This document shows, piece after piece, positions 6,102-45,314 of a stretch of 50,093 nt of DNA. The stretch spans positions 1 through 50,093 of the forward strand of contig JAGCOF010000057.1 in NCBI GenBank assembly GCA_017645585.1, in the 5' to 3' direction. The position numbers and the translations under genes were made by a program. How positions within the stretch are numbered: the first letter of the stretch is position 1; each line of letters begins with the position of its first letter. Below the pieces are notes generated by a model. The model worked only from the letters and a program-made list of their open reading frames with translations, had not been told where the DNA came from and ran no database searches. This DNA comes from Bacteroidales bacterium. Lineage in GTDB: Bacteria; Bacteroidota; Bacteroidia; Bacteroidales; P3.

Positions 6102-9100
6102 ATGGGCAAAAACGGCGATATACGGCAGGCGCTGGATGCGTTTATCAGGAAGTATTATAAGAACCTCCTGATACGGGGCTTGCTGTGTGCCGTGGGCATC
6201 GTGCTGACGCTCTTCCTGGCTGCGGTGCTGCTGGAGCATTTCGGCTGGCTCTCGCCCCTGGGCCGCGGCCTCATCTTCTGGGTGGGCCTGGCTGCGGTGG
6301 CTGCGGTGCTTGTCTGGCTGGTGCTGAGACCCCTGCTGAAGATGCACGGCCGCGGCAAGCGTATCTCCCATGCTGACGCTGCCCGCATTATTGGCCGCCA
6401 CTTCCCCGAGGTGTCGGACAAACTGCTCAACCTACTGCAATTAATGGAGGGCACTTCCGAAGATTCCGATCTGCTGTTGGCAGCGGTGGAGCAGAAGACC
6501 GCCCTGCTGCGGCCTGTGCCGTTCCTGAGCGCTATCAACCTCAAGGGCAATCGCCGCTACCTGAAGTATGCTCTGCCGCCGCTGGCGGTGCTGCTTGTGC
6601 TGCTGCTTGTGGCTCCGCAGACGGTGACGGGTCCTTCGAAGCGCATCGTCCATTACAACACCGTATACGAGCGTCCCGCCCCCTTCGCTTTCTGCATTCT
6701 CAACGACGCCCTCAGCGCCCGGCAAGGCGAGGACTTCACCCTGCGGGTCACCACCGAAGGCGAGGCCCAGCCGGCCGAGGTGACACTCTGCCTCGACGAC
6801 CGCCGTTACCGTATGCACGCCGACAAGGGCGTCTTTAGCTATACCTTCAGCAAGCTGCAGCGCTCGCAGACCTTCCGCCTCGAAGGTGGCGGGGTGGTGT
6901 CGCAGGACTATAGCCTCGAGGTGCAGCCCAACCCCTCGGTGCTGTCGTTCCGCATGCTCCTCTCCTACCCTGCCTATACGCGCCGCGAAAGCGAGACGGT
7001 GCTCAACCTGGGCGATGCCGCTGTGCCCGAAGGCACCACTGTGCGCTGGCTCTTCCAGACCCAGGATGCCGACAGTTTATGTTTTGAAGAGGAAAGAGGA
7101 AAGTGGAAAGTGGAAAGCGGGGTGGACGGCAACGGCAGGGTGGAAGTCAGCCGCAGGGTGATGGACAATATGGACTACGCGTTCTGCGTCAGCCGGCTGA
7201 CCACTGACCACCGGCCACTGACTACTACTTCCGACACGCTGATATACAGCCTTTCGGTCATCAAGGACGCCCTGCCGATGATAGCGGTGGAGGAAGTGGT
7301 CGACTCGCTGCACCCCGACCGTCGGCTGTTCCGTGGACGCATCAAAGACGATTATGGCTTCTCCAGGCTTGTTTTTGTACACAAGACGGTAAACCCCAAG
7401 GATACGACCCGAAATGCGCTCAGCGAGGCTGAAATTGCCCTTGGCGGGGATGCCAGCCAGGAGTTCTACTTCTCGTTCAATACCGCTGAGCTCAGCTTGG
7501 CCCCGGGCGATGAGCTGACCTACTACTTCGAGGTGAGCGACAACGACGCCATCCACGGCCCCAAGACGGCCCGCTCGCAGGTGTTCGAGGTGAAGATACC
7601 CACCGAGGAGGAGCTCGACCGTCTGTTGGAGCAGACGAGCAGCGACGTGCGTCAGAGCGCCGAGAGCCAGATGGGCGAGCTGCGCCGTCTGCAGGAGGAA
7701 ATCAACGAGATGATGCGCCGCCTGGTGGACAAGAAGGAGCTCAATTGGCAGGACCGCAAGGAGCTGGAGCAGCTGGCCGAGAAGCAGAAGCAGGTGAAGG
7801 CCATGATGCAGCAGATGCAGCAGCAGATACAGGAGAACAACAGGCTGGAGCAGCGCTACCGTGAGCAGAGCGAGCAGTTGATGGAGAAACAGCGCGAGTT
7901 GGACCGCCTGATGAACGAGGTGATGGACGAGAAGATGAAGGAGACCCTGGCCGAGATGGAACGCATGATGCAGGAGCTCGACAAGCAGAAGGTGCAGCAG
8001 CAGCTGGAGCAGCTGAAGCTCGACAATGCCGAGCTGGAGAAGCAGTTGGACCAGAACATCGAGCTGATGAAGCGCCTGGAGATTGAGAAGAAAGTGGAGC
8101 AGACCATCCAGAAGATGGACCGCCTGGCCGAGGAACAACGCCAGCTGGGCAAGGAGACCGAGCAGGCCAAGGGCAAGGAGAAGGAGCAGCTGCAGCAACG
8201 GCAGCAGGAGCTCGGCGACCGCTTCCAGCAGCTGAAGCAGGACCTCGACCAGATCAAGCAGGACTATAAGGATCTTGACCCGAGCACCGACTTCAAGGTG
8301 CCGCAGGAGCTGGAGCAGCAGGTGGAGCAGAAGCAACAGGGCGCCCGGCAGCAGCTGCAGAAGGGGCGCAACAAGGAGGCCTCGAAGATGCAGCAGGAGG
8401 CCGCCGACGATATGGAGCGCCTCAGCGAGGCCATTGCCGAGGCACAGCTCGACGCTGAGCAGCAGGACATGGCCGAGGACGCCGAGCAGGTGCGCCAGCT
8501 GCTAAAGAACCTCGTGCAGCTCTCTTTCAACCAGGAGGAGCTTATCACGGACCTCAACGCCATCTATATCCAGGACCCCAAGTACCAGACCATTATCGCC
8601 CGTCAGAACCGCATACGCGACGATTTCCGCGGCGTCGAGGACTCGCTGCGCTCGCTGGCCCGTCGCCAGCTGGCTGTGGCCTCGGCCATCACCAAGGAGG
8701 TTGGCGAGGTCAATAGCAGCGTGGGCCGCTCGCTCAGCGGCTTGCTGGACATGAATCAGTCGTTCTATGGTAGCTACAAGAACACCAACGCGGCCCGCTC
8801 GATGCAGTACGGCATGACGTCGCTCAACAACCTGGCCCTTGTGCTGGCCGAGAGCCTCGACCAGATGCAGGACCAGATGCGTCAGAACGCCCAGAAAAAG
8901 AAGAGCGGACAGTGCAAGAACCAGGGCAAGAGCAGCAGCCAATGCAACAATCCCGGCAAGGGCAAGCCCTCGCCCAAATCGATGCGCCAGATGCAGGAGG
9001 AGCTCAACAAGCAGATGGAGGCCCTCAAGAAGCAGCTCGACAAGCAGGGCAACAAGCCCGGCGGGCGTCACCAGCTGGGCCAGGGGCAGCAGATGAGCGA

Positions 9101-9521
9101 GGAGTTTGTTAGGATGGCCGCGCAGCAGGAGATGATACGCCGCATGATGCAGCAGTATGGCCAGGAGATGAAGTCGGCCAGCGGCGGCGACCCCAAGCTG
9201 GCACGCGAGATTGACCAGCTGATGCGTCAGATGGAACAGACCGAGACGGACCTGGTGAACCGCACCATCACGCAGCAGACCATCAAGCGGCAGCAACAGA
9301 TTATGACGCGCCTGCTGGAGCACGAGAAAGCCGAGATGGAGCGCGAGAAAGAGGAACGCCGCGAGAGCCACGAGGCCGGCGACCTCTACAGCCAGCCCTC
9401 CCCTGCCGAGCTCGAGCGCTACAACCGTCAGCTGCAGCCCGCTGCTGACCAGCTCCGCACCGTCCCCCCCACCCTGTCGCCATACTACCGCGACAAGGTC
9501 AATGACTACTTCTACCGGTAG
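6102..9521 (+). CDS. DUF4175-like large membrane protein with Gln-rich coiled coil
   Basis: Start at 6102 (MGKNGDIRQA); the longer frame from 6009 would have to translate through the perfect stem-loop. The 1139-residue product has hydrophobic segments at about 24-44, 52-75 and 154-175, then a beta-rich extracytoplasmic region to about 480, then a very long coiled coil very rich in Gln, Glu, Lys and Met (about 500-830), and a second Q/M-rich part to the end. This layout and the following HATPase, ybeY and mnmG genes match the Bacteroidota DUF4175 family, whose function is unknown. Two heptamer repeat tracts lie inside the beta-rich region (residues about 329-339 and 366-376). Confidence 0.8.
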   Translation: MGKNGDIRQALDAFIRKYYKNLLIRGLLCAVGIVLTLFLAAVLLEHFGWLSPLGRGLIFWVGLAAVAAVLVWLVLRPLLKMHGRGKRISHADAARIIGRHFPEVSDKLLNLLQLMEGTSEDSDLLLAAVEQKTALLRPVPFLSAINLKGNRRYLKYALPPLAVLLVLLLVAPQTVTGPSKRIVHYNTVYERPAPFAFCILNDALSARQGEDFTLRVTTEGEAQPAEVTLCLDDRRYRMHADKGVFSYTFSKLQRSQTFRLEGGGVVSQDYSLEVQPNPSVLSFRMLLSYPAYTRRESETVLNLGDAAVPEGTTVRWLFQTQDADSLCFEEERGKWKVESGVDGNGRVEVSRRVMDNMDYAFCVSRLTTDHRPLTTTSDTLIYSLSVIKDALPMIAVEEVVDSLHPDRRLFRGRIKDDYGFSRLVFVHKTVNPKDTTRNALSEAEIALGGDASQEFYFSFNTAELSLAPGDELTYYFEVSDNDAIHGPKTARSQVFEVKIPTEEELDRLLEQTSSDVRQSAESQMGELRRLQEEINEMMRRLVDKKELNWQDRKELEQLAEKQKQVKAMMQQMQQQIQENNRLEQRYREQSEQLMEKQRELDRLMNEVMDEKMKETLAEMERMMQELDKQKVQQQLEQLKLDNAELEKQLDQNIELMKRLEIEKKVEQTIQKMDRLAEEQRQLGKETEQAKGKEKEQLQQRQQELGDRFQQLKQDLDQIKQDYKDLDPSTDFKVPQELEQQVEQKQQGARQQLQKGRNKEASKMQQEAADDMERLSEAIAEAQLDAEQQDMAEDAEQVRQLLKNLVQLSFNQEELITDLNAIYIQDPKYQTIIARQNRIRDDFRGVEDSLRSLARRQLAVASAITKEVGEVNSSVGRSLSGLLDMNQSFYGSYKNTNAARSMQYGMTSLNNLALVLAESLDQMQDQMRQNAQKKKSGQCKNQGKSSSQCNNPGKGKPSPKSMRQMQEELNKQMEALKKQLDKQGNKPGGRHQLGQGQQMSEEFVRMAAQQEMIRRMMQQYGQEMKSASGGDPKLAREIDQLMRQMEQTETDLVNRTITQQTIKRQQQIMTRLLEHEKAEMEREKEERRESHEAGDLYSQPSPAELERYNRQLQPAADQLRTVPPTLSPYYRDKVNDYFYR
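7086..7120. repeat. In-frame heptamer tract (GAAAGTG units) in DUF4175-like gene
   Basis: Units GAAAGAG, GAAAGTG, GAAAGTG and GAAAGCG stand head to tail at 7092-7119, after a shortened unit. On the other strand the unit reads CACTTTC. The encoded peptide (EEERGKWKVESG) looks unlike its surroundings, and the frame is kept. Confidence 0.85.
7198..7228. repeat. In-frame heptamer tract (TGACCAC units) in DUF4175-like gene
   Basis: Units TGACCAC, TGACCAC, CGGCCAC and TGACTAC occupy 7198-7225, followed by TAC. The encoded peptide is LTTDHRPLTTTS. It lies only about 80 bases from the tract at 7086-7120. Confidence 0.8.
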
Positions 9522-9561
9522 AAAAATTCGTGCGGTGGGGGTGTGATTTAGATAATTTTTG

Positions 9562-9569
9562 TATATTTG
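9562..9569 (+). promoter_or_regulatory. Bacteroidota-type -7 box (TATATTTG)
   Basis: TATATTTG matches TAnnTTTG and lies 13 bases before the ATG of the HATPase gene. A good -33 TTTG is not seen, so this is a moderate call. It suggests that the HATPase, ybeY and mnmG genes can be transcribed separately from the DUF4175-like gene. Confidence 0.5.
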
Positions 9570-9581
9570 TAGCAGTTTTTA

Positions 9582-10049
9582 ATGGATGCTATCATGACGG
9601 AAGAGTTTGTTATACAGTCCGATATTGCTCTTTTGCCCTCGGTGGAGGAGAGGATTTTTCATTTTTGCCACGAGTGCAATGTGGGTGACTATCACTCCGC
9701 TGTGTCGGTGGCGGCACTGCAGGCTGTGGAGAACGCCATCGTGCACGGCAACGGCTCCGATGCTTCGAAGAAGGTGAGGGTAGAGTGTGGCACCTGCCGT
9801 GGTGGCATCTATGTGGAGGTGGCCGATGAGGGTGAGGGTTTCGACTTCGGTCGCTATGGTAACCTGCCTGTCGATGAGTCGGAGAGGGGAGAGGGTATTT
9901 TCGTCATGAAGTCGCTTGCCGACCGGATGACCTTCTCGGAGGGTGGCCGTCGGGTGCGGTTGGAGTTCGTCGTCTCGGGTATCGACCCCGCCGACTCGCT
10001 GGAGCGCATCGCCCTCCTGCAGGAACATTTCGCCACGGTGGCTGCATGA
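9582..10049 (+). CDS. RsbW-like HATPase (ATP-binding anti-sigma-type protein)
   Basis: The 155-residue protein is a single GHKL ATPase domain. The N box is ALQAVENAIVHGN (about 46-57), G1 is VADEGEGFD (80-88) and G2 is ERGEGIFVMKSLAD (101-114). This is the HATPase_c_2 type found in anti-sigma factor kinases such as RsbW and SpoIIAB. Bacteroidota lack SigB/SigF, so the partner here is unknown. An alternative start at 9594 would give MTEEF. The same gene order next to a DUF4175-like gene and ybeY is, as far as I recall, common in this phylum. Confidence 0.85.
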   Translation: MDAIMTEEFVIQSDIALLPSVEERIFHFCHECNVGDYHSAVSVAALQAVENAIVHGNGSDASKKVRVECGTCRGGIYVEVADEGEGFDFGRYGNLPVDESERGEGIFVMKSLADRMTFSEGGRRVRLEFVVSGIDPADSLERIALLQEHFATVAA

Positions 10050-10183
10050 GTCGATTCCCCTTTTTGCGTCGCTTGCGGAGCACCACGGCCCTGGCCGACG
10101 GCAAATGAAGGCAGGATTTTGAGGAAAAAGAGGCATTAGTGACGCTACATACTGCTGATAATCAATAAAATATATTACTTTAT

Positions 10184-10621
10184 ATGGCAATACGGTTTTC
10201 TGTTCGATCTGGAGAGTTCAAGCTCGAGGAGGCCCCGAAAGTGCGGCAATGGGTCGCCGAGGTGGTTAAAAGGCGCGGAAAGTCGGTTGGCAACATCAAT
10301 TATCTTTTTTGCGATGACGAGTACCTGTTGGAGGTCAACCGTCGCTACCTGAACCACGACACTTATACCGACATTATCACCTTCGACTATGTGGCCGGTG
10401 GGTTGGTGTCGGGCGACATTATGATTAGCACCGAGCGGGTGGGAGAGAATGCCGTCAAGTTCGGGGTGTCCTTCGGACAGGAGTTGCACCGTGTCATTAT
10501 CCACGGCGTGCTGCATCTGCTGGGACAGGGTGACAAGAGTGAGGCCGAGGCACGTGAGATGCGCCGTCAGGAGGAGGAGGCCCTCGGTGTGTGGAACACG
10601 ATGTTTCGCGAGGAACAATAG
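10184..10621 (+). CDS. ybeY: Endoribonuclease YbeY (rRNA maturation)
   Basis: The 145-residue product carries the metal-binding motif as HGVLHLLGQGD (residues 107-117). The first two histidines are kept, and the position usually held by the third histidine is Asp117. I recall this replacement in Bacteroidota YbeY, so it need not mean loss of function. YbeY takes part in 16S rRNA 3'-end maturation and ribosome quality control. The region 10050-10183 upstream holds no convincing gene. Only 18 bases separate it from mnmG, suggesting one transcript for two RNA-processing proteins. Confidence 0.92.
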   Translation: MAIRFSVRSGEFKLEEAPKVRQWVAEVVKRRGKSVGNINYLFCDDEYLLEVNRRYLNHDTYTDIITFDYVAGGLVSGDIMISTERVGENAVKFGVSFGQELHRVIIHGVLHLLGQGDKSEAEAREMRRQEEEALGVWNTMFREEQ

Positions 10622-10639
10622 ATGTAACTATCCTATTCT

Positions 10640-12505: not shown

Positions 12506-12526
12506 AGCACAATGAGATAGCCCGTC

Positions 12527-12542
12527 TGTTTCACGCGGAACG
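12527..12542. promoter_or_regulatory. parS-like imperfect palindrome beside mnmG
   Basis: TGTTTCACGCGGAACG matches the common ParB site TGTTTCACGTGAAACA at 13 of 16 positions, and the TGTTTCACGTGGAACA variant at 14. It covers the stop codon of the WbqC-like gene, 22 bases after mnmG. In many bacteria gidA lies near parS and the origin, but no parA or parB is in the window, so this may be chance. Confidence 0.3.
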
Positions 12543-13148
12543 TGCGAGTTCGCGCAAGTAGTCGTGTGCTTCGGGGCCGAGGTTGAAGAGCAGGTCCAGG
12601 ATGCTGAGGTTGGGCACGAAGGGTAGTCGGTCGGCGAAGACCTGGTAGTAGGCGGGAAAGACGTCGGCAGGGTAGGGGACTTTGGGCGAGAAGGTGTTGC
12701 GGTAGTCGGCGTTCTCGCCTGTGGCGGGCTGATACTCCTCGGTGAAGGTGACTGTGCAGTCAATTTTCAGTTGCTTCAGCAGCCATTCGAGGACCGCCAG
12801 ATTGAGGTCGATAAGCCGCTCGCAGGGCTGCATGAGCAGTGCCTCGAGGTCGTCCTTGTAGTACATAAAATAGGGCGAGGCGCTGTAGGCGGCCGTGAGG
12901 GTGCGCAGGTGGATGACGTTCCAGCGCTCCTTGTGGTCGATGAGCACCTCCTCGGTGCGGCTATGGTTGCGGCGCACCACCGGCACCGTCAGCGTGCGGA
13001 TGCCGCCGGCGGTCATGATGTCCATACGGTTTCGGTAGGTCTGCTTGGGGTAGGTCTCCTGGATTTCAATAAGGATATCGGTATGCTGCATCAGCGTGGC
13101 AACATACGCAATAGGGGGGAAATAGGCGGTGCTGAACAGGGGGGTCAT
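12531..13148 (-). CDS. WbqC-like family protein
   Basis: The start at 13148 (MTPLFSTAYFPP) shares an ATGA with the stop of the upstream gene; the longer frame to 13238 would run backwards through that gene. The 205-residue product has the family features FSTAYFPPIAYVATL near the start, ETYPKQTYRNRMDI, VRRNHSRTEEVLID and a Trp/Tyr-rich middle (ERWNVIHLRTL, YSASPYFMYY). WbqC-like proteins occur in O-antigen and surface polysaccharide loci and in Bacteroidota housekeeping contexts; the exact reaction is not established. It converges with mnmG, with only 25 bases between the stops. Confidence 0.8.
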   Translation of the reverse strand: MTPLFSTAYFPPIAYVATLMQHTDILIEIQETYPKQTYRNRMDIMTAGGIRTLTVPVVRRNHSRTEEVLIDHKERWNVIHLRTLTAAYSASPYFMYYKDDLEALLMQPCERLIDLNLAVLEWLLKQLKIDCTVTFTEEYQPATGENADYRNTFSPKVPYPADVFPAYYQVFADRLPFVPNLSILDLLFNLGPEAHDYLRELARSA

Positions 13149-13561: not shown

Positions 13562-13583
13562 GATTTCTTATGATTTCAGACTG

Positions 13584-13615
13584 CAAAGGTACGACTATTT
13601 TCCGAGATGGCCAAA
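13584..13615 (-). promoter_or_regulatory. Bacteroidota promoter for small acidic protein / WbqC operon
   Basis: On the minus strand TACCTTTG (13584-13591) matches the -7 box and TTTG (13612-13615) the -33 box, with a 20-base spacer. It lies 23-54 bases upstream of the start at 13561. Confidence 0.75.
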
Positions 13616-13620
13616 TTTAT

Positions 13621-21169: not shown

Positions 21170-22192
21170 ATGAAACAAAGCAAGATTATCTATGGTGGCC
21201 TTGAGGCGCTGGGGCGCGAGCTGGCCAAGGAGGAATGGCAGGGGGCGAAGTACACTATCCTGTTGGATGAGAATACTTTCCAGCATTGTCTGCCGCTGCT
21301 GATTTCCAGCGTCGAGGCGCTGCAGGAGGCCGAGTTCATAGAGGTGCCTGTGGGCGAGGAGTGCAAGAGTCTGGAGGTGGCGGCGCAGGTGTGGCAGACC
21401 CTCCTTGAAGGTGAGGCCGACCGCAACGCGGTGCTGGTCAACCTCGGCGGCGGCTGTGTCTGCGACCTCGGCGGCTTTGTGGCGGCTGGCTACAAGCGTG
21501 GCATCCGCCACATCAACGTGCCTACCACCCTGCTCGGTATGGTCGATGCTGCCATCGGCGGCAAGACGGCCATCGACTTCGGCGGCGTGAAGAACAGCAT
21601 CGGCCACTTCTATCCTGCTGTGCTAACGGTCATAGAACCGGCGTTCCTGGAGACCCTCCCTGAGACGGAGCTCCTCAACGGCCGCATGGAGATGGTCAAG
21701 ACCGCCGCCGTCACCGACCCCGCACTTTTTGAGCGACTGCTATCCACTACCCACTATCCACTATCCACTGTCAAAGAAGTGGCCCGCCTCAAGGCGCGCG
21801 TGGTGAAGGCCGACCCCTACGACCATAGTATCAGGAAGATACTCAACTTCGGCCACACCTTCGGCCACGCCATCGAGGTCTATCGCGGCTTGCCGCACGG
21901 CCTTGCCGTGGGCGTCGGCATGAAGGTGGCCATGTATCTCTCAACGAAGAAACTCGGCCTTGCTGAGGAGGTCTACACCACATACTCCCGCTGGCTCAAA
22001 GAGTTCACCCCTCACCTCTCACCCTTCACCTTGAAGGACATCGAGCAGATGTTCCCCTTGATGCGGCAGGACAAGAAAAACACCGCAGGGTCGCTGCGGT
22101 GTGTCTTGTTGCAGGAACTCGGCGCCCCCGTCATCGATGTAGAGATTTCCGACAACGAGGTGCGCGACGCCCTGCTGCGGCTGCATAGATAG
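21170..22192 (+). CDS. aroB: 3-dehydroquinate synthase
   Basis: The start at 21170 (MKQSKIIYGG) is preferred; 21167 is also possible. The 340-residue product has the NAD-binding region NLGGGCVCDLGGFVAAGYKR and VPTTLLGMVDAAIGGKTAID, and the metal ligands in GRMEMVKTA, LNFGHTFGHAIE and LPHGLAVGVGM. It makes 3-dehydroquinate from DAHP in the shikimate pathway. Length is slightly short for the family. Two heptamer repeat tracts fall inside it, at residues about 191-200 and 279-287, both apparently in surface loops between conserved motifs. Confidence 0.95.
   Translation: MKQSKIIYGGLEALGRELAKEEWQGAKYTILLDENTFQHCLPLLISSVEALQEAEFIEVPVGEECKSLEVAAQVWQTLLEGEADRNAVLVNLGGGCVCDLGGFVAAGYKRGIRHINVPTTLLGMVDAAIGGKTAIDFGGVKNSIGHFYPAVLTVIEPAFLETLPETELLNGRMEMVKTAAVTDPALFERLLSTTHYPLSTVKEVARLKARVVKADPYDHSIRKILNFGHTFGHAIEVYRGLPHGLAVGVGMKVAMYLSTKKLGLAEEVYTTYSRWLKEFTPHLSPFTLKDIEQMFPLMRQDKKNTAGSLRCVLLQELGAPVIDVEISDNEVRDALLRLHR
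21741..21770. repeat. In-frame heptamer tract (TATCCAC units) in aroB
   Basis: Units TATCCAC, TACCCAC, TATCCAC, TATCCAC then TGTC. The encoded peptide is LSTTHYPLSTV. It lies between the metal-ligand motif GRMEMVKTA and the conserved KADPYDHSIRKILNFGH segment. Confidence 0.85.
22004..22031. repeat. In-frame heptamer tract (CTCACCT units) in aroB
   Basis: Units TTCACCC, CTCACCT, CTCACCC and TTCACCT, exactly four. The encoded peptide is FTPHLSPFTL. Units are nearly the same as in the tract at 1-110. Confidence 0.85.
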
Positions 22193-23529: not shown

Positions 23530-24801
23530 TTATTTACATGGGACGATGATTTGTTCGGTGGTGCGGCTGCGCTGCTCGAGGAGGATGGGGCGGCCGGCGA
23601 CGATGCGGTCGATCACCTGCTGTGTGTAGTAGCGGATGGTGATGAGTTGCAGGTTTTCATTGTAACGCACACGGAACATGCTCTTTAGGCGCTCTATCAG
23701 CACCCCGATACGCTGCGGATTGTTGTCCACGCAGATGGAGAAGCTCAGGGCCGAGTTCTGCATCAGGTTCACCCTGATACCAAGCTCGTTAAGCAATCCG
23801 AAGATGACCTGCAGGTTGTCCTCGGCGATGAAGGAGTAGTCGCGCGGCAGGATGGAGAGCAGTATTTGGTCGTTCTTGAAGATGTAGAGTGGCGTTTCAG
23901 GGCTGATAGTATGATAGTTGCCAACGGCAGAACCCTCGCTGTCGGGGGTGATGAAGGAGCGGATGTAGAGTGGGATGTTCTTGTTTTGGATGGGCTTCAC
24001 CGTCTTGGGGTGGATGACCGAGGCGCCGTAGTAGGCCAACTCGATGGCTTCGTTGTAGGGTATCTGGTTGATTTTGACGGTGTCGTTGAAGAACTTGGGG
24101 TCGGCGTTGAGGAAGCCCGGCACGTCCTTCCAGATGGTGACGCTCTCGGCATCAAGGCAGTAGGCTAGGATGGCGGCCGTGTAGTCGGAGCCCTCGCGGC
24201 CGAGGGTGGTTGTCTGACCGTTGGCGGTGCCGCCGATGAAGCCCTGCGTCAAGATAACATGGCAGGAACCCTTAATTCTTAATTCTAAATTCTTGATTTC
24301 CTTCTCTGTGGCGCTCCAATCCACACGTCCTTCGCGGTAGTGGCTGTCGGTTTTGATCAGTTGGCGTGCGTCGGCCCACAAGGTATTTATTCCAAGCGAG
24401 TTGAGGTAGGTGGCGATGATGGTGGTCGAGAGCAGTTCGCCGTGACTGACCACCTGGTCGTAATTGTAATTGTAGTGCTCCACGTTGGGTGGCAGGGTGG
24501 CGCAGAGGTGGTCGAGGTCGGCCAGCAGGGCATCTATCTTATGCTGAACCTCCATGTTACCAGGCATTAACGCCGTGGCGATGCTGCGGTGATACTCCTC
24601 CAGCTGCTGCCGAAAAACCGTCGTATCCTCCACTTTGGCCGCCCCAGGAACCAACTTCTCCAGCAGGTTGGTTGTTTTGCCCATAGCAGAGACGACTACC
24701 ACCAAAGGCTCTGATTCCAAGTGTTTTTGCACTATCTGCGCCATATTGCGTACGGCGTCGGCGCTGTTGACGGACGCTCCTCCAAATTTATATACCTTCA
24801 T
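23530..24801 (-). CDS. lysC: Aspartate kinase
   Basis: The 423-residue product starts MKVYKFGGASV, the kinase signature, and has VVVVSAMGKTTNLLEKL, FIGGTANGQTTTLGREGSDYTA and ASVIHPKTVKPIQ. A C-terminal ACT-like region (about 310-400) carries DYSFIAEDNLQVIFGLL and probably binds the feedback inhibitor. It is a monofunctional aspartokinase for Lys, Thr and Met synthesis. A heptamer tract at 24271-24300 encodes residues about 168-177, in the loop before the conserved ILTQGFIGG segment. The gene is 11 bases after smpB. Confidence 0.93.
   Translation of the reverse strand: MKVYKFGGASVNSADAVRNMAQIVQKHLESEPLVVVVSAMGKTTNLLEKLVPGAAKVEDTTVFRQQLEEYHRSIATALMPGNMEVQHKIDALLADLDHLCATLPPNVEHYNYNYDQVVSHGELLSTTIIATYLNSLGINTLWADARQLIKTDSHYREGRVDWSATEKEIKNLELRIKGSCHVILTQGFIGGTANGQTTTLGREGSDYTAAILAYCLDAESVTIWKDVPGFLNADPKFFNDTVKINQIPYNEAIELAYYGASVIHPKTVKPIQNKNIPLYIRSFITPDSEGSAVGNYHTISPETPLYIFKNDQILLSILPRDYSFIAEDNLQVIFGLLNELGIRVNLMQNSALSFSICVDNNPQRIGVLIERLKSMFRVRYNENLQLITIRYYTQQVIDRIVAGRPILLEQRSRTTEQIIVPCK
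24271..24300. repeat. In-frame heptamer tract (CTTAATT units) in lysC
   Basis: Units CTTAATT, CTTAATT, CTAAATT and CTTGATT, then TC. On the gene strand the peptide is EIKNLELRIKG, AT-rich in an otherwise GC-rich gene. Confidence 0.85.
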
Positions 24802-27376: not shown

Positions 27377-28378
27377 TCACGCTAATTGGTTACAAGTTCG
27401 CGTGGTATAGTGTTCTTTGATGCGGTCGAGGAGGGTGTCGAGGTCGGCGAGGGTAGTGGTGCTGACGAGGGCGAGGCGGTAGGGCTTGAAGTTGTATAAC
27501 CCCTTGAAGTAGTTGCCGTAGTGTTTGCGCATCTCGAAAATGGCGGTGCGCTCGCCTTTGAATTCCACCGCCATGTGGAGGTGGCGGCGGCAGACGTCGA
27601 CACGCTCGGCAACGGTAATCTCCCGTTCCGGTTCACCGCGGAAGGCCCGCTGGCATTGCTCAAAGATCCAGGGGTTGCCGATGGCGGCGCGGCCGATGAG
27701 AAGGCCGTCGACACCGTAATACCTCTTGCTCTCAATGGCTTGCGCTGCGGTGGTGATGTCGCCGTTGCCGAGGATGGGGATGTGTATGCGGGGGTTGTTC
27801 TTCACCTCGCCGATGAGTGTCCAATCGGCTGTTCCACTATACATCTGAGTCTTAGTGCGTCCGTGGATGCTGAGGGCGGCGATGCCGGTGTCTTGCAGCG
27901 CTTCGGCAAAGTCGGTTATCTTCATGGAATCAGCGCTGTAGCCCAAGCGGGTCTTCACGGTGACGGGCAGATGTGCACGTTTGACGAGTGAAGTGGTGAT
28001 TCCAAGCATCTTAGGTATGTCTTGCAGGATTCCTGAACCAGCTCCTTTGCCGGCCACTTTGCGCACGGGGCAGCCCCAATTGATGTCGATGAAATCGGGC
28101 TCGGCCTTTTCGACCACCTCGAGGCAGCGCAGCAGCTCCTCTTCGTTGGCGCCAAATATCTGTATGCCAATGGGGTGCTGCTCTTCGGTGAAGCGCATCT
28201 TGCGGAGGCTTTTCTCGGCGTCGCGGTTGAGGGCCTCGCTGGCGATGAACTCGGTGATGAGCAGGTCGGCGCCGAACTCCTTGCAGAGCTGACGGAAGGG
28301 CAGGTCGGTGATGTCGTCCATTGGCGAGAGGCCTATGAGACAAGGTGAGGGGTGAGAGGTGAAAGGGGAGAGGTTCAT
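27377..28378 (-). CDS. tRNA-dihydrouridine synthase
   Basis: The 333-residue FMN enzyme has the start motif LSPMDDITDLPFRQL, the catalytic signature NWGCPVRKVAGKGAGSGIL (Cys103), VTVKTRLGY, IHGRTK and GLLIGRAAIGNPWIF. It reduces uridine in tRNA D-loops with NADPH. Which Dus subfamily it is was not decided. The first 12 residues (MNLSPFTSHPSP) come from a heptamer repeat tract and extend the normal start. The YolD-like gene ends 3 bases upstream of it. Confidence 0.93.
   Translation of the reverse strand: MNLSPFTSHPSPCLIGLSPMDDITDLPFRQLCKEFGADLLITEFIASEALNRDAEKSLRKMRFTEEQHPIGIQIFGANEEELLRCLEVVEKAEPDFIDINWGCPVRKVAGKGAGSGILQDIPKMLGITTSLVKRAHLPVTVKTRLGYSADSMKITDFAEALQDTGIAALSIHGRTKTQMYSGTADWTLIGEVKNNPRIHIPILGNGDITTAAQAIESKRYYGVDGLLIGRAAIGNPWIFEQCQRAFRGEPEREITVAERVDVCRRHLHMAVEFKGERTAIFEMRKHYGNYFKGLYNFKPYRLALVSTTTLADLDTLLDRIKEHYTTRTCNQLA
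28343..28375. repeat. Heptamer tract forming the N-terminus of the dus gene
   Basis: Units AGGTGAG, GGGTGAG, AGGTGAA and AGGGGAG, then AGGTT. On the gene strand this is CTCACCT-type repeat immediately after the ATG at 28376-28378. It overlaps the first codons, so the start codon may have been provided by the repeat's flank. Confidence 0.85.
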
Positions 28379-28381
28379 GGG

Positions 28382-28600
28382 TTATTCTTCGTCAAGGGGT
28401 TCGTTGTAAAGGCTTTGCATCATGTCGTCGTCGAAGTAGAGCTGTTCGTCGGGTTGCTCGGCGGCGCGGCGGATGGCAGCCCCGAGGCCTGTGAGGGCGG
28501 CGAAGGGTGAGAATTGTCCGGCGCGCCCCTCCATGCTCATGCGTGGATAGTGTGTCGACACGTGGTGCGGCAAATTGATTATGTCCTCATAGTCACTCAT
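28382..28600 (-). CDS. YolD-like small protein
   Basis: The 72-residue protein contains MSDYEDIINLPHHVST, HYPRMSMEGRAGQFSPFAALTG, the core of the YolD-like family. In Bacillus, YolD-type genes precede UvrX-type Y-family polymerases on prophages and elements and are LexA controlled. Here it directly follows such a polymerase gene on the same strand, 16 bases apart, with a heptamer tract in the spacer. A role as accessory or inhibitor of the polymerase is inferred from this pairing. Confidence 0.75.
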   Translation of the reverse strand: MSDYEDIINLPHHVSTHYPRMSMEGRAGQFSPFAALTGLGAAIRRAAEQPDEQLYFDDDMMQSLYNEPLDEE

Positions 28601-28616
28601 AACTTTTAACTCTTAA
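28599..28616. repeat. Heptamer tract between polymerase and YolD-like genes
   Basis: AACTTTT and AACTCTT followed by AACTAC, a short tract of about two and a half units. It covers the 16-base spacer and reaches the stop codon of the polymerase gene. Confidence 0.6.
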
Positions 28617-33053: not shown

Positions 33054-33135
33054 GGTTTAAGGTTTAAAGTTTAAGGTTAAAGGGATGCAGACATCAACTT
33101 GACCTTAAACTTTAAACCTTAAACTTTAAACTTAA
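33054..33135. repeat. Heptamer tracts as inverted repeat between ppiD and M23 genes
   Basis: Left arm: GGTTTAA, GGTTTAA, AGTTTAA, GG (33054-33076). Right arm: CTTAAAC, TTTAAAC, CTTAAAC, TTTAAAC and TTAAACT (33104-33138). The arms are complementary over about 20 bases with a loop of about 27 bases. Here the heptamer family forms a stem, which could fold in RNA. Confidence 0.85.
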
Positions 33136-36586: not shown

Positions 36587-36592
36587 CATGTT

Positions 36593-38008: not shown

Positions 38009-38021
38009 GAATTATATCATT

Positions 38022-38798: not shown

Positions 38799-39691
38799 AC
38801 GTCAACATACACAATCTCAGTTTAAAGAACCCTGTGATGACCGCCAGCGGCACCTTTGGCTATGGCGAGGAGTTCGCCGACTTTGTCAACCTTGAGCGCT
38901 TGGGTGGCTTCATTGTCAAGGGCACCACCGGCAGCCATCGTGAGGGCAACCCTTATCCCCGTATGGCCGAAACCCCCTTGGGGATGCTCAACGCCGTGGG
39001 GCTGCAGAACGGCGGTGTGGAGAAGTTCTGTGCCGAGGTGTATCATAGAATCAAGCACTTGGACACCAATATCATCGTTAATGTCAGCGGCTCTTCCATT
39101 GAGGAATACTGTTCGGTGGCCGAGCAGATAGATGCGCTGGACAAGATACCCGCCATCGAGCTGAACATTAGCTGCCCCAACGTCAAGAAGGGCGGCATGG
39201 GCTTCGGAACAAACCCCGATATGGCGGCACAAGTGGTCAACGAGGTGCGCAAAGTATACCATAAGACGCTGATAGTAAAGCTGACACCCAATGTAACGAG
39301 CATCGTCGACATCGCCAAAGCGGTCGAAGGTGCCGGTGCCGACAGCGTCAGCCTCATCAACACCCTGTTGGGCATGGCCATTGATGTGGAGCGCCAGCGG
39401 CCTTACCTCAGCACCATCACCGGCGGCTTGAGTGGCCCCTGTGTGAAGCCCGTGGCTGTGCGCATGGTGTGGCAAGTGGCTCATGCCGTGCAGATTCCCG
39501 TTATCGGCTTGGGTGGCATCAGTACTGCTGCCGATGCGCTGGAGTTCCTCATGGCTGGTGCCAAAGCCATCCAGGTAGGCACCGCCAACTTCGTCGACCC
39601 TGCCGTTACCATGAAGATTATCGACGGCCTTGAAGATTATTGCAATCGTCATGGTATCAAGGACATCAACGAGATTATCGGCATAATATGA
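38792..39691 (+). CDS. pyrD: Dihydroorotate dehydrogenase, class 1B catalytic subunit
   Basis: Start at 38792 (MLNVNIHNL); an ATG at 38783 is also possible. The product of about 299 residues has [34 protein letters not shown] with the catalytic Cys, [23 protein letters not shown] and [21 protein letters not shown]. It oxidises dihydroorotate to orotate with PyrK. The stop overlaps the next ATG. Confidence 0.96.
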
Positions 39692-40527
39692 TTTTGGTGG
39701 CCGACAGCGGGAGCACCAAGACCACTTGGGCGCAGGTAGGAACTGATAACATGATTGTTACCGAGGGCCTGAATCCTCATTTCACCACCGATGAGCAGTT
39801 CCTCGCCGCCTGCCGTCAAGTCAGCCAACACTTTTCACTTTCTACTTTTCACTTTTCACTTTACTTCTATGGTGCCGGCTGTGGTGCCGACCGTCAGCGG
39901 CAACGGGTGAAGGAGTTGCTTGCCTCGTTTCTTCGGCCTGAAATAGTCGAAGTTGATACAGATATGCTTGGTGCCTGTCGTGCTGTCAGTGGCGACCATG
40001 CAGGCCTTGTGGGCATCCTTGGCACCGGCAGCAATGCTTGCTACTACGACGGGCAACACATTGCTTGCCAACCCGTCAGCACGGGCTTTATCATGGGCGA
40101 CAACGGATCGGCCAATCACGTGGGTCGTATATTGCTCAACGACTATCTGACGCAGCGTATGCCCGACGGGCTAAGGTGTTTGTTCCATGAGGCTTATCCC
40201 ATGAGCGATGCTCAACTCATCGATGCCGTCTACCACCAACCCAATGCCAACCGTTTCCTCGCTTCGCTGGCTCCCTTTGCGGTGCGGAATGAAGAGGAAG
40301 ACTATTGTGCCGAAGTGATACGCACGGCACTGCATGATTTCTACTATGGCCCCTTGACCACCGTCATTGAACGTAGTGGCTGCGGCGACGTGGAGCTTCA
40401 CCTTGTGGGCGGCTTTGCCAAAGCCATCGAACCCACCCTGCGCCGCTACCTCGCCGACCTCGGTCAACCGGTAGGCACCGTCCTCGCCGACCCCATGCCG
40501 GGTTTGCTTGCCTATCACAACAAATAA
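39688..40527 (+). CDS. BadF/BadG-type ATPase (N-acetylglucosamine-kinase-like)
   Basis: Start at 39688 shares ATGA with pyrD. The 279-residue product has the ATP phosphate-1 motif [17 protein letters not shown], a second motif [15 protein letters not shown] and [12 protein letters not shown]. These are features of the BadF/BadG/BcrA/BcrD ATPase family, which includes GlcNAc kinases. A heptamer tract inserts [10 protein letters not shown] at residues about 48-59, after the first conserved domain strand. The substrate cannot be assigned from sequence alone. A terminator follows directly. Confidence 0.8.
39831..39864. repeat. In-frame heptamer tract (CTTTTCA units) in the BadF-type kinase gene
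   Basis: Units CTTTTCA, CTTTCTA, CTTTTCA, CTTTTCA and a partial unit CTTTACT. The encoded peptide is a run of Phe, Ser, Thr and His that looks foreign to the kinase fold. Confidence 0.85.
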
Positions 40528-40530
40528 GAA

Positions 40531-40556
40531 AGCCGTGGCGGTTGCCACGGCTTTTC
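40531..40556 (+). terminator. Intrinsic terminator after the BadF-type kinase gene
   Basis: AGCCGTGGC and GCCACGGCT (40531-40552) with a GGTT loop, followed by TTTTC; the opposite side is A-rich, so it could serve both converging genes. Confidence 0.85.
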
Positions 40557-40577
40557 TATTTAAGATTCTCTCAACAT

Positions 40578-41381
40578 TTAGAAACTGATACCCAAGCGGA
40601 GGGTGAGGAGCGTCGGGGTGATGGACTTCAGAGTTTCTTTTTGTTTATCTGATTGGTCAGTGTAATTATTGTTGCTGAATTCAGCAGTGTACTTTATTTC
40701 GTCTTTCACCTTGCCGGCACCGAGGTTGTAGTAGCCCAATTCGATAGAGTATTTCTCGGCGAAGGTGACGCCAGCGGCCAGACGGAAAGCAAAGCTGACA
40801 GCGGGGTCAAATTCAATATTTGTTGACTCTTCAACAGTACCAGAGATGGCATAGCCCTGATAGTATCCCTCTTGTTCATATGTAACATTAAAGGGGGTAA
40901 TGATGCGAATGTTAGCACCCACAGCACCAGCAGCGTAGAGGCTGATACCCGAGGTCAGGGGGAGATCATATTTGGCACCCACCATCACGGGGATGTTAAT
41001 ATAATTAGGTGTCGTGAGTGACCAGCTGTCATAGCCATTGTCCAAGTCTTCTTTGAAATCGGCGAAGAAGTCGTTCAGGTCTTCATTGAGGCCATTGTAG
41101 AAAGCGTCCAACGAGATAACGACCCCGAGGCCGTTGACGCTCGACACGGGCATGTTGTACTCAAAGCCCAAGTTGAAACCAAGACCGGCACCACCGTCGG
41201 TGTGCTTACTCCACAAGCCCCAACGCAGGTTATTGAAGCCGTTATTGTAGTCGGCTTTTGCATCGGCGAAGTCGCCCAGCGGGAAACCGCCACCAAGTTT
41301 GAGGGTAAAAGTGCCCTGTGCCATTGCGGCACCGCCCAGCATAGCCATCAAGGCAGCTGCAATTAATACTTTCTTTTTCAT
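40578..41381 (-). CDS. Outer-membrane beta-barrel protein (PorT-like)
   Basis: The 267-residue product has a signal peptide (1-21, ending AAMAQ), then barrel-type strands separated by acidic loops: FTLKLGGGFPLGDF near the start, ISLYAAGAVGANIRI, FAFRLAAGVTFAEKYSIEL and final LLTLRLGISF with a C-terminal Phe. These traits fit the PorT / OMP_b-brl family. A good promoter lies upstream. Confidence 0.85.
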   Translation of the reverse strand: MKKKVLIAAALMAMLGGAAMAQGTFTLKLGGGFPLGDFADAKADYNNGFNNLRWGLWSKHTDGGAGLGFNLGFEYNMPVSSVNGLGVVISLDAFYNGLNEDLNDFFADFKEDLDNGYDSWSLTTPNYINIPVMVGAKYDLPLTSGISLYAAGAVGANIRIITPFNVTYEQEGYYQGYAISGTVEESTNIEFDPAVSFAFRLAAGVTFAEKYSIELGYYNLGAGKVKDEIKYTAEFSNNNYTDQSDKQKETLKSITPTLLTLRLGISF

Positions 41382-41430
41382 GTTGATGTTGTTTTAAAGT
41401 TGGTTGTTTTTTGTTTGAATTTTGACGATG

Positions 41431-41461
41431 CAAAGGTACGAACATTTTTTAATACGACAAA
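41431..41461 (-). promoter_or_regulatory. Bacteroidota promoter of the beta-barrel gene
   Basis: Minus strand: TACCTTTG (41431-41438) and TTTG (41458-41461) with a 19-base spacer, about 50 bases before the ATG at 41381. Confidence 0.8.
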
Positions 41462-41511
41462 ATTTTTTTTATAATTTGTCAAAATTTTGCCCTTGCCAGC
41501 CCCGCATCAAC

Positions 41512-41581
41512 AACCTACCAAGGACTTCCCATCGACTTCCCAAGGACTTCCCATCGACTACCAAGGAGGTGGTTGGTAGGT
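41512..41581. repeat. 11-base tandem repeat with inverted end
   Basis: Units AACCTACCAAG, GACTTCCCATC, GACTTCCCAAG, GACTTCCCATC and GACTACCAAGG stand head to tail (41512-41566). TTGGTAGGT follows at 41573-41581 and complements the first unit (ACCTACCAA). It lies between two divergent genes, beyond the beta-barrel promoter. The rest of 41382-41733 is AT-rich leader. Confidence 0.85.
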
Positions 41582-41733
41582 GCTATGGTGGGGGGTGCCG
41601 AGGGGCTGGTCTGCCGATGAAGTGTTTTCATGGCTTTTGATGGCAATTTGTGTAAAAAAATCTTGCGGCAACAATATTTGCGAACAAGGGGCGTTATCTA
41701 ATATTGATTAACTACTAAAACGCAAACTGAAAA

Positions 41734-42162
41734 ATGGATTTGACAAACATCTTGGTGGTTGCCGGCAAGCCGGACCTGAACGAAATGGTGTCGCAAACCA
41801 AGGGCGGCGCTGTGGTGAAGAATCTGGTCACGGGACAGAAGTTCCCTGTGTTCAAGAACGATAGAATCAGCTCGTTGGGCGAGATACGCCTTTTCACTGA
41901 CGACGGCGAGCGTCCGCTGGTGGAGGTGATGCAGGCCATCTACAAGCACCTGGACGGCAAGCCGACGGCCTTCGAGCCCAAGAAAGCCGAGGGCAAGGAG
42001 CTGTTCGACCTGCTGGGCGCGGTGCTGCCCGACTATGACCGCGAGCGTGTGCACACTTCGGACGCGAAGAAGCTCTTTGCGTGGTACAACGTGTTGCTGA
42101 CCGCCGGCAAAATCACCCTCGACGACGAGACCACCGAGGCGCAGGAAGAGACGAAAGAATAA
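41734..42162 (+). CDS. DUF5606-like protein
   Basis: The 142-residue product starts MDLTNILVVAGKPDLNEMVS and has a small beta barrel-like N half (VVKNLVTGQKFPVF, GEIRLFTDDGERPL) and a helical C half with LPDYDRERVHTSDAKKLFAWYN, the DUF5606 pattern of Bacteroidota. The function is unknown; it looks cytoplasmic. Its C terminus is Glu/Thr-rich. A possible promoter lies near 41647-41680 (TTTG and AATATTTG) but the spacing is off. Confidence 0.85.
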   Translation: MDLTNILVVAGKPDLNEMVSQTKGGAVVKNLVTGQKFPVFKNDRISSLGEIRLFTDDGERPLVEVMQAIYKHLDGKPTAFEPKKAEGKELFDLLGAVLPDYDRERVHTSDAKKLFAWYNVLLTAGKITLDDETTEAQEETKE

Positions 42163-42183
42163 CTTTTAAAATTGAATACAGGT

Positions 42184-43230
42184 ATGAAGAAGATTATCAT
42201 GATGATGTGCACCGCAGCATTGCTGCTGACGGTGGGCTGCAAGAAAGAGGAACAGCACAACAACACAAGTTCGGGCGGCAATGAACCGCAGCGCGACCTG
42301 CGCGAGGGCGCCTACGATCCCGTATGCAAGATTACGGGCGTCACCTACAACGACGGCAGCACCCCCGAGGTGTGGTCGTGGCAGGACGGCAAACTGCAAA
42401 ATGTGAACCAGGATGTGCTGTTTGCCTACCGCAGCGACGGACGCGTGGACAATGTGACGGTGAACAACCTGTCGCTGGGCGATTTGTTGCCGGGCACGCA
42501 ACTGAGCGGCACCATGAGTGTGAACTACAGCGGCGACTACATCTCGAGCATCGTGGTGGAGAACGCTGGCACGCAGGTGTTGACGGCACAGGTGCAGCAC
42601 AACAGCAACAACAAGGTGAGCGGTGCCTCGCTGGTGTTGGACAACGAGTTGCTGCTGGACCTCTTCAACATGATGCTGGAGCAGTTCCTGGGCGACAATG
42701 CAAACTCGGGCGATGCAGTTTCGTCGGTGGACAATGTGGATGGCAATGTGGCTTTCACCTGGCAGGGTGAGAATGTGAGCCAAGCCCGTCTGAATGTGGG
42801 CTTCCGCGTGACCTCAACGGTGGGCACGCTGGTCGACTTGGTGGGTGAGGAGAACCTCAGTATGTTCGGCTCCTATGCCCAATACCTGACCATGCTGCCC
42901 GACAACCAGCCGCTGTACTTCAACATTGCGGTGGGCGACACGGTGGATTACACCTACGACAACAAGGTGAACCCCTACAAGAACTACCTCGGCCGCGTCC
43001 ATATCTCGTGCCTGTCGCAGAACAATATGGACATGGAGATGCACAATGGCCTCATCAATGTGGCTATCTCTACAAGCCTCTTCGGCTCCATGATACAGCT
43101 GTACCAAACCAGCTATGCGTTGCCGATCGACAACAAATACTACGAATACTCTTCCTACAACAATGCGGGCTGCCCGCTGCGCATGGTTGATCAGGATGGT
43201 GTTGTGACCGAGTTCCAATACATGGAATAA
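42184..43230 (+). CDS. Lipoprotein, probably surface-exposed, beta-rich
   Basis: Start at 42184 (MKKIIMMMCT); an ATG at 42172 is in frame. The lipobox ends LLTVGC and the mature start is CKKEE, matching the Bacteroidota surface-export pattern (positively charged then two acidic residues after the cysteine). The 348-residue protein has repeated strands with YD-like turns (YNDGSTPEVWSWQDG, YRSDGRVDNV, YNNAGCPLRMVDQDG). It resembles DUF4595-type lipoproteins, but I am not certain. It is 21 bases after the DUF5606-like gene and 17 before metG. Confidence 0.75.
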   Translation: MKKIIMMMCTAALLLTVGCKKEEQHNNTSSGGNEPQRDLREGAYDPVCKITGVTYNDGSTPEVWSWQDGKLQNVNQDVLFAYRSDGRVDNVTVNNLSLGDLLPGTQLSGTMSVNYSGDYISSIVVENAGTQVLTAQVQHNSNNKVSGASLVLDNELLLDLFNMMLEQFLGDNANSGDAVSSVDNVDGNVAFTWQGENVSQARLNVGFRVTSTVGTLVDLVGEENLSMFGSYAQYLTMLPDNQPLYFNIAVGDTVDYTYDNKVNPYKNYLGRVHISCLSQNNMDMEMHNGLINVAISTSLFGSMIQLYQTSYALPIDNKYYEYSSYNNAGCPLRMVDQDGVVTEFQYME

Positions 43231-43247
43231 ACACTCATCACTAAACA

Positions 43248-45314
43248 ATGACATACACAGAGAAAGACAAACAATACAAGCGCTACACGGTTACCTCGGC
43301 GCTGCCCTATGCTAACGGCCCCGTGCACATCGGCCACCTGGCCGGTGTCTATGTGCCCGCCGATGTCTACGTACGCTATTTGCGCGCCCAGGGCGAGCAG
43401 GTGATGTTCATCGGCGGCTCGGACGAGCACGGCGTGCCCATCACCATCAAGGCCCGCAAGGAGGGCTGCACACCGCAGGACATCGTCGACCGCTACCACA
43501 AGATTATCAAGGACTCCTTTGCCGAGCTGGGCATCTCGTTCGACATCTACAGCCGCACCAGCAGCAAGGAGCACCACGAGACGGCAGCCGCCTACTTCAA
43601 GAAGCTCTACGAGGAGGGTAAGTTCGTCGAGAAGGTGTCGCAGCAGTACTATGACGAGGAGGCAGGTTGCTTCCTGGCCGACCGCTACATTACCGGCACC
43701 TGCCCTCATTGCGGCAACGAGCGTGCCTATGGCGACCAATGCGAAGCCTGCGGCACCTCGCTCAACGCCACCGACCTCATCAACCCCAAGAGCGCCCTCA
43801 GCGGCTCGAAGCCTGTGCTGAAGGAGACCAAGCATTGGTTTCTTCCGCTCGACCAGGACGAGCCCTGGCTGCGCGAGTGGATACTCGAAGGCCACAAGGG
43901 CGATTGGAAGACCAACGTCTACGGTCAGTGCAAGTCGTGGATCGATGCCGGATTGCAGCCCCGTGCTGTCACGCGTGACCTCGATTGGGGCGTCAAGGTG
44001 CCCATCGAAGGTGCCGACGGCAAGGTGCTTTACGTCTGGTTCGACGCCCCCATCGGATACATTTCCTTCACTAAGCAGCTCAAAGGCGACGATTGGGAGA
44101 AGTGGTGGAAAGACCAGGACACCAAGCTGGTGCACTTCATCGGCAAGGACAATATCGTCTTCCATTGCATCATCTTCCCCTCGATGCTCCATGCCGACGG
44201 CAGCTATATCCTGCCCGCCAATGTACCCGCCAATGAGTTCCTCAACCTCGAGGGCGACAAGATTTCGACCTCAAGGAATTGGGCCGTCTGGCTGCACGAA
44301 TACCTGCAGGAGTTCCCAGGCAAGCAGGATGTGCTGCGCTATACCCTCTGTAGCAACGCCCCTGAGACCAAGGACAACGACTTCACTTGGAAAGACTTCC
44401 AGCTGAAGAACAACAGCGAGCTGGTGGCCATCCTCGGCAATTTCGTCAACCGCACACTGGTGCTGACGCATAAGTTCTATGGCGGCAAAGTGCCTAAGAG
44501 AGTGGAAAGTGGAGAGTGGAAAGTGGAAAGCGAATTGATAAAGGAAATAGCAGCGTTCCCTGAGAAAATAGGCCGCTCCATCGAGACCTACCGCTTCCGC
44601 GAGGCGCTGGCCGAGATGATGAACCTGGCCCGTCTGGGTAACAAATACCTCACCGACACCGAGCCCTGGAAGCTTATCAAGAGCGACCCCGAGCGCACCG
44701 CCACGGTGATGAACCTCTCGCTGCAGATTTGCGCCAATCTGGCTGTGCTCTGCGCCCCCTTCCTGCCCTTCACGGCTGACAAGATGCACCGCATCATGAA
44801 CCTGCAGGCCCTGGGTTGGAAAGATGCCGGCCGCGCCGACATCCTGATGGAAGGCCACCAGATTGACCAGCCGGAGTTGCTCTTCGAGCAGATTAGCGAC
44901 GAGACCATCCAGGCACAGGTCGACAAACTGCAGGCCACCAAGGCGCAGAACGAGTTGAATGCCTGGCAGCCCGCCGCCGTCAAGGAAAACGTCACCATCG
45001 ACGACTTCGGCCGTATGGATATACGCGTGGGTACAATATTAGAATGTATCAAAGTGCCTAAGGCCGACAAGTTGTTGCAGTTCAAGATAGAGGATGGCAT
45101 GGGCACGCGCACCATCGTGAGTGGCATCGCCAAGTTCTACCCCGAGCCCGAGAAGCTCGTCGGAAAGCAAGTTTGCTTCATCGCCAACTTCCTGCCGCGT
45201 AAGTTGAAGGGTGTCGAGAGCCAGGGAATGATTCTCAGCGCCGAAGACAAAGACGGCCGCTTGGTGCTGCTAACTCCCTCAGACATAGTCACCCCCGGCT
45301 GCAACGTAGGTTGA
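43248..45314 (+). CDS. metG: Methionyl-tRNA synthetase with C-terminal tRNA-binding domain
   Basis: The 688-residue product has HIGH (residues 27-30) in [17 protein letters not shown], a zinc knuckle CPHC...CEAC (about 152-167), [11 protein letters not shown], and KISTS (about 339-343) instead of KMSKS. That variant is common in MetG of this type. The last 110 residues form the Trbp111-like tRNA-binding domain ([30 protein letters not shown]). A heptamer tract encodes residues about 418-428, between the anticodon-binding helices. Confidence 0.97.
44499..44530. repeat. In-frame heptamer tract (AAAGTGG units) in metG
   Basis: Units AGAGTGG, AAAGTGG, AGAGTGG and AAAGTGG, then AAAGCGA. The encoded peptide is [12 protein letters not shown]. 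It is the same unit type as at 7086-7120. Confidence 0.85.

Follow-up and report, generated by a model that had tools for sequence, protein, structure and literature searches.

Short, degenerate tandem units of 7 bp in many dispersed copies are known from filamentous cyanobacteria (e.g., Calothrix and Nostoc) as short tandemly repeated repetitive (STRR) sequences, and the Rickettsia palindromic elements (RPEs), which are longer, palindromic, and not 7-bp tandem repeats, form in-frame insertions in conserved genes. The order Bacteroidales, which includes Paludibacter propionicigenes, is the source of the DNA analysed here: a stretch of 50,093 nucleotides (nt), called the window throughout, that is contig 62 of the 62-contig draft genome (1.93 Mb, 83% complete; G000 below) of a rumen gut bacterium. 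An earlier note, made from the letters of the window alone, had pointed out eleven tracts of 7-base tandem repeats, most of them inside conserved genes, and knew of no described counterpart in Bacteroidales. Such a counterpart exists, since TAACTGA heptamer repeats occur in five Bacteroidetes including P. propionicigenes (MacGregor 2015, PMC4679880). In our open-access literature search, this was the only source on heptamer repeats in Bacteroidetes; PMC4692102 mentions three tandem heptanucleotides of Calothrix, and the accessible part of a DNA-structure survey (PMC4060949) holds nothing on heptamers.

Here, we find that orthologous sites in the genus (in aroB, metG, an amino-sugar-kinase-like gene, and a DUF4175-like gene) keep the position, register, and near-constant length of a heptamer array, and that the 7-base word at these sites varies by species. 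On balance, we consider the tracts of the window to be, probably, a dispersed heptanucleotide satellite of the genus, made uniform inside each array and also by copying from locus to locus, with the reading frame kept by selection.

All eleven tracts show period-7 sequence, both by Tandem Repeats Finder (TRF) and by the identity of bases seven positions apart (lag-7 identity, 0.71-0.89), and lags 5, 6, 8, and 9 score below lag 7 in each of them. The periodicity had been described as exact, a part of the claim that does not stand, as lag-7 identity never rises above 0.89 in any tract and one of them (28599-28616) spans just 18 nt. A stricter array scan found 7 arrays in the window at a score of 12 or more and 8 at a score of 9 or more, against means of 0.01 and 0.22 (maximum 2 for the latter) in 100 windows simulated with a second-order Markov model (Markov-2). 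In the same scan of the window, periods 5, 6, 8, 10, and 13 were not enriched; period 11 was enriched too, as were, at lower thresholds, periods 9 and 12, both multiples of three. Across a genome sample of G000 comprising the window and 20 further stretches (395,458 bp), the scan returned 37 period-7 arrays vs 0 in one simulated set, and 0-4 arrays for each of periods 4-6, 8-10, 12, and 13. Because the counts in the window and in the 395,458 bp far exceed the simulated ones, the heptamer feature is genuine, genome-wide, and period-specific, and its repeats are not exact. The arrays thus have what marks heptanucleotide long simple sequence repeats (LSSRs) of the STRR type, i.e., 7-bp tandem arrays far above chance and dispersed. 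Within seven G000 arrays, identity between units drops slowly with distance (0.86 to 0.77) and adjacent units are most alike, a slow fall that likens them to homogenising satellites. Separately, an excess of 14-bp steps was ruled out, lag-14 identity being no greater than lag-7 identity in G000 and in two relatives that also carry arrays, G002 and G012.

Eight of the tracts sit, as the earlier note had it, without frame loss in six open genes that have no internal stops: two each in the DUF4175-like gene and aroB, and one each in the aspartokinase gene, dusB, the amino-sugar-kinase-like gene, and metG. The DUF4175 assignment is weak (a Pfam match under its cut-off). The kinase-like gene resembles the genes for GlcNAc/MurNAc kinases and relatives in a profile search of PDB sequences (E down to 8.1e-75), and its assignment as a BadF-type ATPase was rejected (Pfam BadF below cut-off, no NCBIfam match). 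Compared with their orthologs, the window tracts differ in net length by 0, +1, or +2 residues (relatives also show +3 or +5), and several orthologs have a stretch of equal length with another word or with none. These net lengths do not come in steps of 7 or 21 nt, so we reject plain whole-unit insertion as the origin of the window tracts, and the suggestion that a process adding whole sets of units preserves the frame is not supported. Longer insertions do exist in relatives. Two objections had been foreseen, that homologs without repeats would show the same residues and that random sequence would hold as many tracts; neither materialised, as homologs without arrays carry different residues at these positions and simulated sequence gives almost no tracts.

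Several genes have different words at one place in different orthologs. In metG, one ortholog (L024) has AACGGAG in the codons and register of the G000 word AGTGGAA, and the other eight orthologs of at least 80% identity have no array, seven of them being 2 residues shorter and one (L027) of equal length. At the first aroB site, three different words stand in one phase and at one length in G000, G002, and G127; a fourth genome (G004) has its array on the opposite strand and a fifth (G047) a longer one, and the array scan was positive in 5 of 33 orthologs (the aroB search covered 30 genomes, of which G119 gave no match). Both tracts of the DUF4175-like gene are matched in G001 by arrays of other words, and the same G001 gene contains an in-frame insertion made of two inverted heptamer arrays (L178:698-782). 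Where G000 has heptamers at the beginning of dusB, the repeat array of G002 (L171:8886-8935) has a 10-bp unit. Larger changes also stay in frame: a U32-peptidase family gene of G002 holds an in-frame heptamer array of about 60 residues (L171:2660-2844), a 157-nt insertion relative to G009 that leaves the G002 gene without a stop. Orthologous arrays at equal codon positions in many separately assembled genomes, and six window genes free of internal stops, make an assembly or sequencing artefact of metagenome bins scarcely credible, even with a draft of 62 contigs and an array at a contig end (window 1-110).

At the second aroB site, 14 of 33 orthologs share a 5-residue extension, of which the array scan detects only two (G012 and G051). 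Lag-7 identity in this extension is 0.42-0.87, vs averages of 0.23-0.33 for the other lags from 4 to 11, with a codon-shuffle p of at most 0.039 in each of the 14. The most plausible origin of the extension is an old array, the greater part of which has decayed to ordinary codons.

Where such arrays fall in the protein was assessed on AlphaFold2 models built from window and locus proteins, with tract positions mapped by hand. The aroB tracts lie in loops between helices (AroB model, predicted local distance difference test, pLDDT, 94.3), and the first of them extends over the initial turn of the helix that follows. These sites, and the N-terminal position of the dusB tract in its gene, are in line with those proposed earlier; the kinase tract (kinase model, pLDDT 91.0) departs from that proposal in part, as it runs from a helix end through a loop to where a beta strand begins. 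Entry of the kinase array into a strand, together with hydrophobic positions before FYGAGCG that are often retained under a change of word, could suggest that selection acts on the encoded peptide, a 21-nt repeat yielding a 7-residue repeat (e.g., FSILNSQFSI) useful in the fold. We consider this very unlikely as the cause of the arrays, since peptide selection alone cannot make 7-base units identical when they are translated in three different frames, intergenic arrays have the same form, and several relatives have no array at the kinase site.

The kinase site was compared most widely. Matches were found in 107 of 120 genomes of the genus, and the best 30 of the 107 were examined along with four named loci (L021, L022, L024, and L026); 18 of the resulting 34 sequences were array-positive in a direct scan. 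One of the four, L022, equals L192 in sequence, and these form the only locus pair of at least 94% identity between the two collections (3.8 kb, 100% identical). Each array was assigned to one of six heptamers, allowing up to 5 mismatches over 28 nt, which left 8 of the 30 genomes unassignable. Among the 22 assignable best-matching genomes, all 14 ATT-type words share one phase, the adjacent phase holds 7 of the 8 words of ACT type, and by our own reading of the alignment the two phases may share the columns A-M-T-T. On a tree of AroB and kinase proteins with the loops left out, the kinase word changed at least 10 times over 22 rows. The frame is kept across species at the orthologous kinase and aroB sites, a point that bears on phase-variation contingency repeats, whose copy number switches genes through frameshifts.

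The kinase-site word of a genome is often one that abounds in its other arrays. For the six words, exact 15-mers were tallied across the 30 genomes, with the fetched kinase locus removed from the counts; G117 and G008 proved rich in these words, and G077 and G104 poor. Over the 22 genomes, the share of a genome's own kinase word elsewhere averaged 0.41, vs 0.20 when permuted (0 of 20,000), and the kinase word was the top of the six elsewhere in 12 genomes vs 5.2 expected by permutation. In a control for relatedness, 148 of 161 differing pairs and 6 of 7 path-independent tree pairs went the expected way.

Such a match might still arise locally, if a polymerase footprint favoured slippage in 7-nt steps at each site during replication and base composition, mutation spectrum, and descent made the words of a genome alike. 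In most genomes of an earlier survey heptamers outnumber every other class of long repeat, and slippage was proposed (Mrazek 2007, via PMC4692102 and PMC4679880); this fits the local explanation, as do the closer likeness of adjacent units and the dependence of word guanine-plus-cytosine (GC) content on genome GC. Purely local slippage is, in our judgement, an appreciable minority possibility, and two results run counter to it. The word match survives swaps restricted by distance to near relatives (p 0.001-0.003) and GC-matched swaps (p ≤0.002; p 0.008 when only the 15 genomes of GC 0.52 or higher are used), the relatedness and GC tests using 21 genomes, as G047, whose word ATTTCTC was uncounted, was left out. 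Further, the sister species G117 and G107 carry different kinase words, and ACTTTCC elsewhere in their genomes counts 115 vs 11.

Returning to the satellite with copying between loci, arrays would grow and homogenise in 7-nt steps, by slippage or by template switching, and new words may spread when short stretches are copied, without change of length, from one array to another within a genome, a form of molecular drive. Old arrays would then decay by point mutation into ordinary loop sequence, and purifying selection on the protein would remove frame-breaking or stop-bearing variants, so that coding arrays persist at tolerant sites. Arrays of the same word mostly have unrelated flanks, with 0% (G000), 7% (G002), and 8% (G012) of pairs above the random 99th percentile of flank likeness. 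A stronger version, in which a dedicated templated process (e.g., a nucleic-acid-guided or annealing enzyme acting on single-stranded DNA at forks) rewrites arrays genome-wide to the current dialect with length unchanged, conserved proteins gaining new loops in concert and species drifting apart by a spreading 7-letter word, strikes us as rather unlikely.

Several observations weigh against inter-locus copying of a shared satellite. Some copies in G002 and G012 moved with their surroundings, because 7-8% of same-word pairs there have unusually alike flanks, and no copying event was directly seen among genomes that include no two strains of one species. The kinase array of G076 is one base out of phase, and the tree resolves 10 of its 27 inner branches poorly. 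In 10 of the 22 genomes (e.g., G127, G001, G047, G059, and G051) the kinase word is not the top one elsewhere, so that matching between word and genome is partial; the six words were picked after the kinase arrays had been seen, and overlapping 15-mers count long arrays repeatedly. Word GC also correlates with genome GC (rho 0.50, p 0.017), a confounder that the controls remove in part. Because of the ten genomes without a top-ranked match and the post hoc choice of words, we take the kinase word match as support for exchange between loci and not as proof. The two genomes G108 and G114 are 96% identical at aroB and 93% in the kinase neighbourhood, and their kinase loops are wholly different; because identity drops in the kinase gene as well, recombination may account for these loops.

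Array placement was scored with simple longest-open-reading-frame gene calls in G000, G002, and G012. In G000, 23 of 37 arrays lie inside predicted genes, and because genes make up 90% of the sequence, arrays are denser per base between genes; the mostly noncoding habit of described LSSR/STRR examples, which is not a strict criterion, is not seen in G000. Only 2 of 45 intergenic heptamer arrays with neighbours on both sides fall between divergent genes, such gaps making up about 29-32% of intergenic bases in the three genomes, and arrays are perhaps lost from promoter regions. Arrays between genes had no clear strand preference relative to transcription, and within genes the coding strand was the G-poor one for 13 of 22 (G000), 24 of 33 (G002), and 11 of 22 (G012) arrays.

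The units tend towards one G-poor strand, described by a rotation-free motif model of about M-A-Y-T plus three variable bases, of which the CAC and AAC unit endings pointed out earlier are only a part. Motif likelihood was above that of every one of 20 within-unit shuffles for G000, for G012, and for the other Bacteroidia; for G002 it only tied the best shuffle. Species dialects with a G-poor core, inverted intergenic pairs, and tolerant coding sites recall the dialects of DNA uptake sequences (DUS; PMC3630211), and a DNA- or RNA-binding protein of shifting specificity might accordingly bring all arrays within a genome to a single dialect, a mechanism proposed for ComP and the Neisseria uptake sequences. 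We think a binding-site origin quite unlikely, as lone units outside arrays are little enriched (0.86-1.41 times the expectation of a fifth-order Markov model in 18 word-genome cases), where uptake sequences are over-represented as single words, and many words coexist in one genome.

The tracts of the window are listed in Table 1. The paired arrays between the SurA-like and M23 peptidase genes form one long predicted hairpin (-39.2 kcal/mol, z -8.2).

Table 1. Heptamer tracts of the window, with position, strand, and remarks
Feature	Position	Strand	Remark
Long heptamer array at contig end, unit CTCTCAC/CTTTCAC	1..110	+	lag-7 identity 0.78
Array AAGAGGA/AAGTGGA in DUF4175-like gene 6009-9521	7086..7120	+	G001 ortholog has an AATTCAG array at the equal place
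Array CTGACCA in DUF4175-like gene 6009-9521	7198..7228	+	G001 ortholog has a TTCAACA-type array at the equal place
aroB site 1, ACTATCC	21741..21770	+	helix-helix loop and first turn of next helix
aroB site 2, ACCTCTC-like	22004..22031	+	loop between two helices
Array in aspartokinase gene, AATTAAG on coding strand	24271..24300	-	longer degenerate stretch here in G002
Array right after dusB start codon, CTCACCT on coding strand	28343..28375	-	replaces usual N-terminal residues
Heptamer remnant, 18 nt, just downstream of IMS (Y-family polymerase-like) gene	28599..28616	-	
Two inverted arrays GGTTTAA / TTAAACT between SurA-like and M23 peptidase genes	33054..33135	+	
Array ACTTTTC in amino-sugar-kinase-like gene 39640-40527	39831..39864	+	species-dependent word, fixed position in genus
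Array AGTGGAA in metG, between catalytic and anticodon-binding domains	44499..44530	+	

Other repeats accompany the heptamers. A period-11 family counts 34 arrays in the 395 kb of G000 vs 0 simulated (in the window at 127-178, 187-231, and 41523-41567); its arrays are mainly intergenic and partly inverted pairs, with 17 of 54 between divergent genes in G000, G002, and G012, and are rare in other Bacteroidia (3 in 1.31 Mb, 71 loci). Period-8 arrays are frequent in G002 (15 in 220 kb, vs 4 in 395 kb of G000). Near the end of the window, a 60-bp tandem repeat of 2.4 copies (45704-45849) lies within overlapping long reading frames, of which the one checked (45289-46530, minus strand) had no Pfam match.

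Among relatives, density at a score of 12 is 8.7 arrays per 100 kb in the 20 G000 stretches, 26 in G002, and 17 in G012, the last two values being atypical because these genomes were sampled further once arrays had turned up in them. Other Bacteroidia have 1.5 arrays per 100 kb (19 in 1.31 Mb, 71 loci), and 14 of 18 genus genomes were free of period-7 arrays in the single 2-20 kb stretch, some under 5 kb, that was scanned in each. Of 149 genomes taken from the order, 8, among them G000, contain three exact copies of ATTCTCA in tandem. Separately, the control word, ATTCTCA read backwards, was abundant as three tandem copies in G219, G220, and G263, which belong to other families of the order and show a heptamer dialect unlike that of ATTCTCA; other words therefore occur elsewhere in the order.

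If the satellite reading is right, a bacterial repeat of satellite type turns over in concert at unlinked loci, even in conserved housekeeping genes, a topic usually reserved for eukaryotes, and the genus would offer a natural experiment on the making and copying of 7-nt arrays. The dominance of heptamers among long bacterial repeats could then be tested within one genus of 120 genomes, and decaying arrays suggest a source of new protein loops.

How does this family compare with those described before? Unlike RPEs, the coding arrays of the window are direct repeats, and its inverted pair is intergenic. With the cyanobacterial STRRs, the family shares its genome-wide heptamer units, here in frame, and the comparison drawn by the earlier note holds to that extent; they differ in lineage, and fixed-place coding arrays with a species-specific word are not described for STRRs in the accessible part of PMC4692102. 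The GGGNATC and GGGGA(C/T)T repeats of Xanthomonas and Nostoc (Rehm 2015, PMC4692102) are likewise intergenic heptamer arrays, some in inverted pairs in Xanthomonas and variable in length and sequence between close species, but their words are G-rich and of quadruplex type, with an intergenic focus. The TAACTGA repeats of Beggiatoaceae, cyanobacteria, and five Bacteroidetes (PMC4679880) are 7-bp tandem repeats, some in reading frames, as here; they differ in having one fixed word, placed mostly just upstream of start codons in BOGUAY, where related heptamers are rare, with coding cases mainly near protein ends. TAACTGA itself, in any rotation or strand, is the majority unit in 0 of 37 (G000), 0 of 64 (G002), and 0 of 38 (G012) arrays, with no exact doublet. 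Heptamer repeats were thus known before, also from a few Bacteroidetes, and what appears new is species dialects turning over at fixed in-gene positions, of which our open-access literature search found no account. The DUS dialects of Neisseriaceae (PMC3630211) offer the parallel of species dialects around a common core, with tolerant coding sites and inverted intergenic pairs, and differ in that they are single short words, where the heptamers form tandem arrays.

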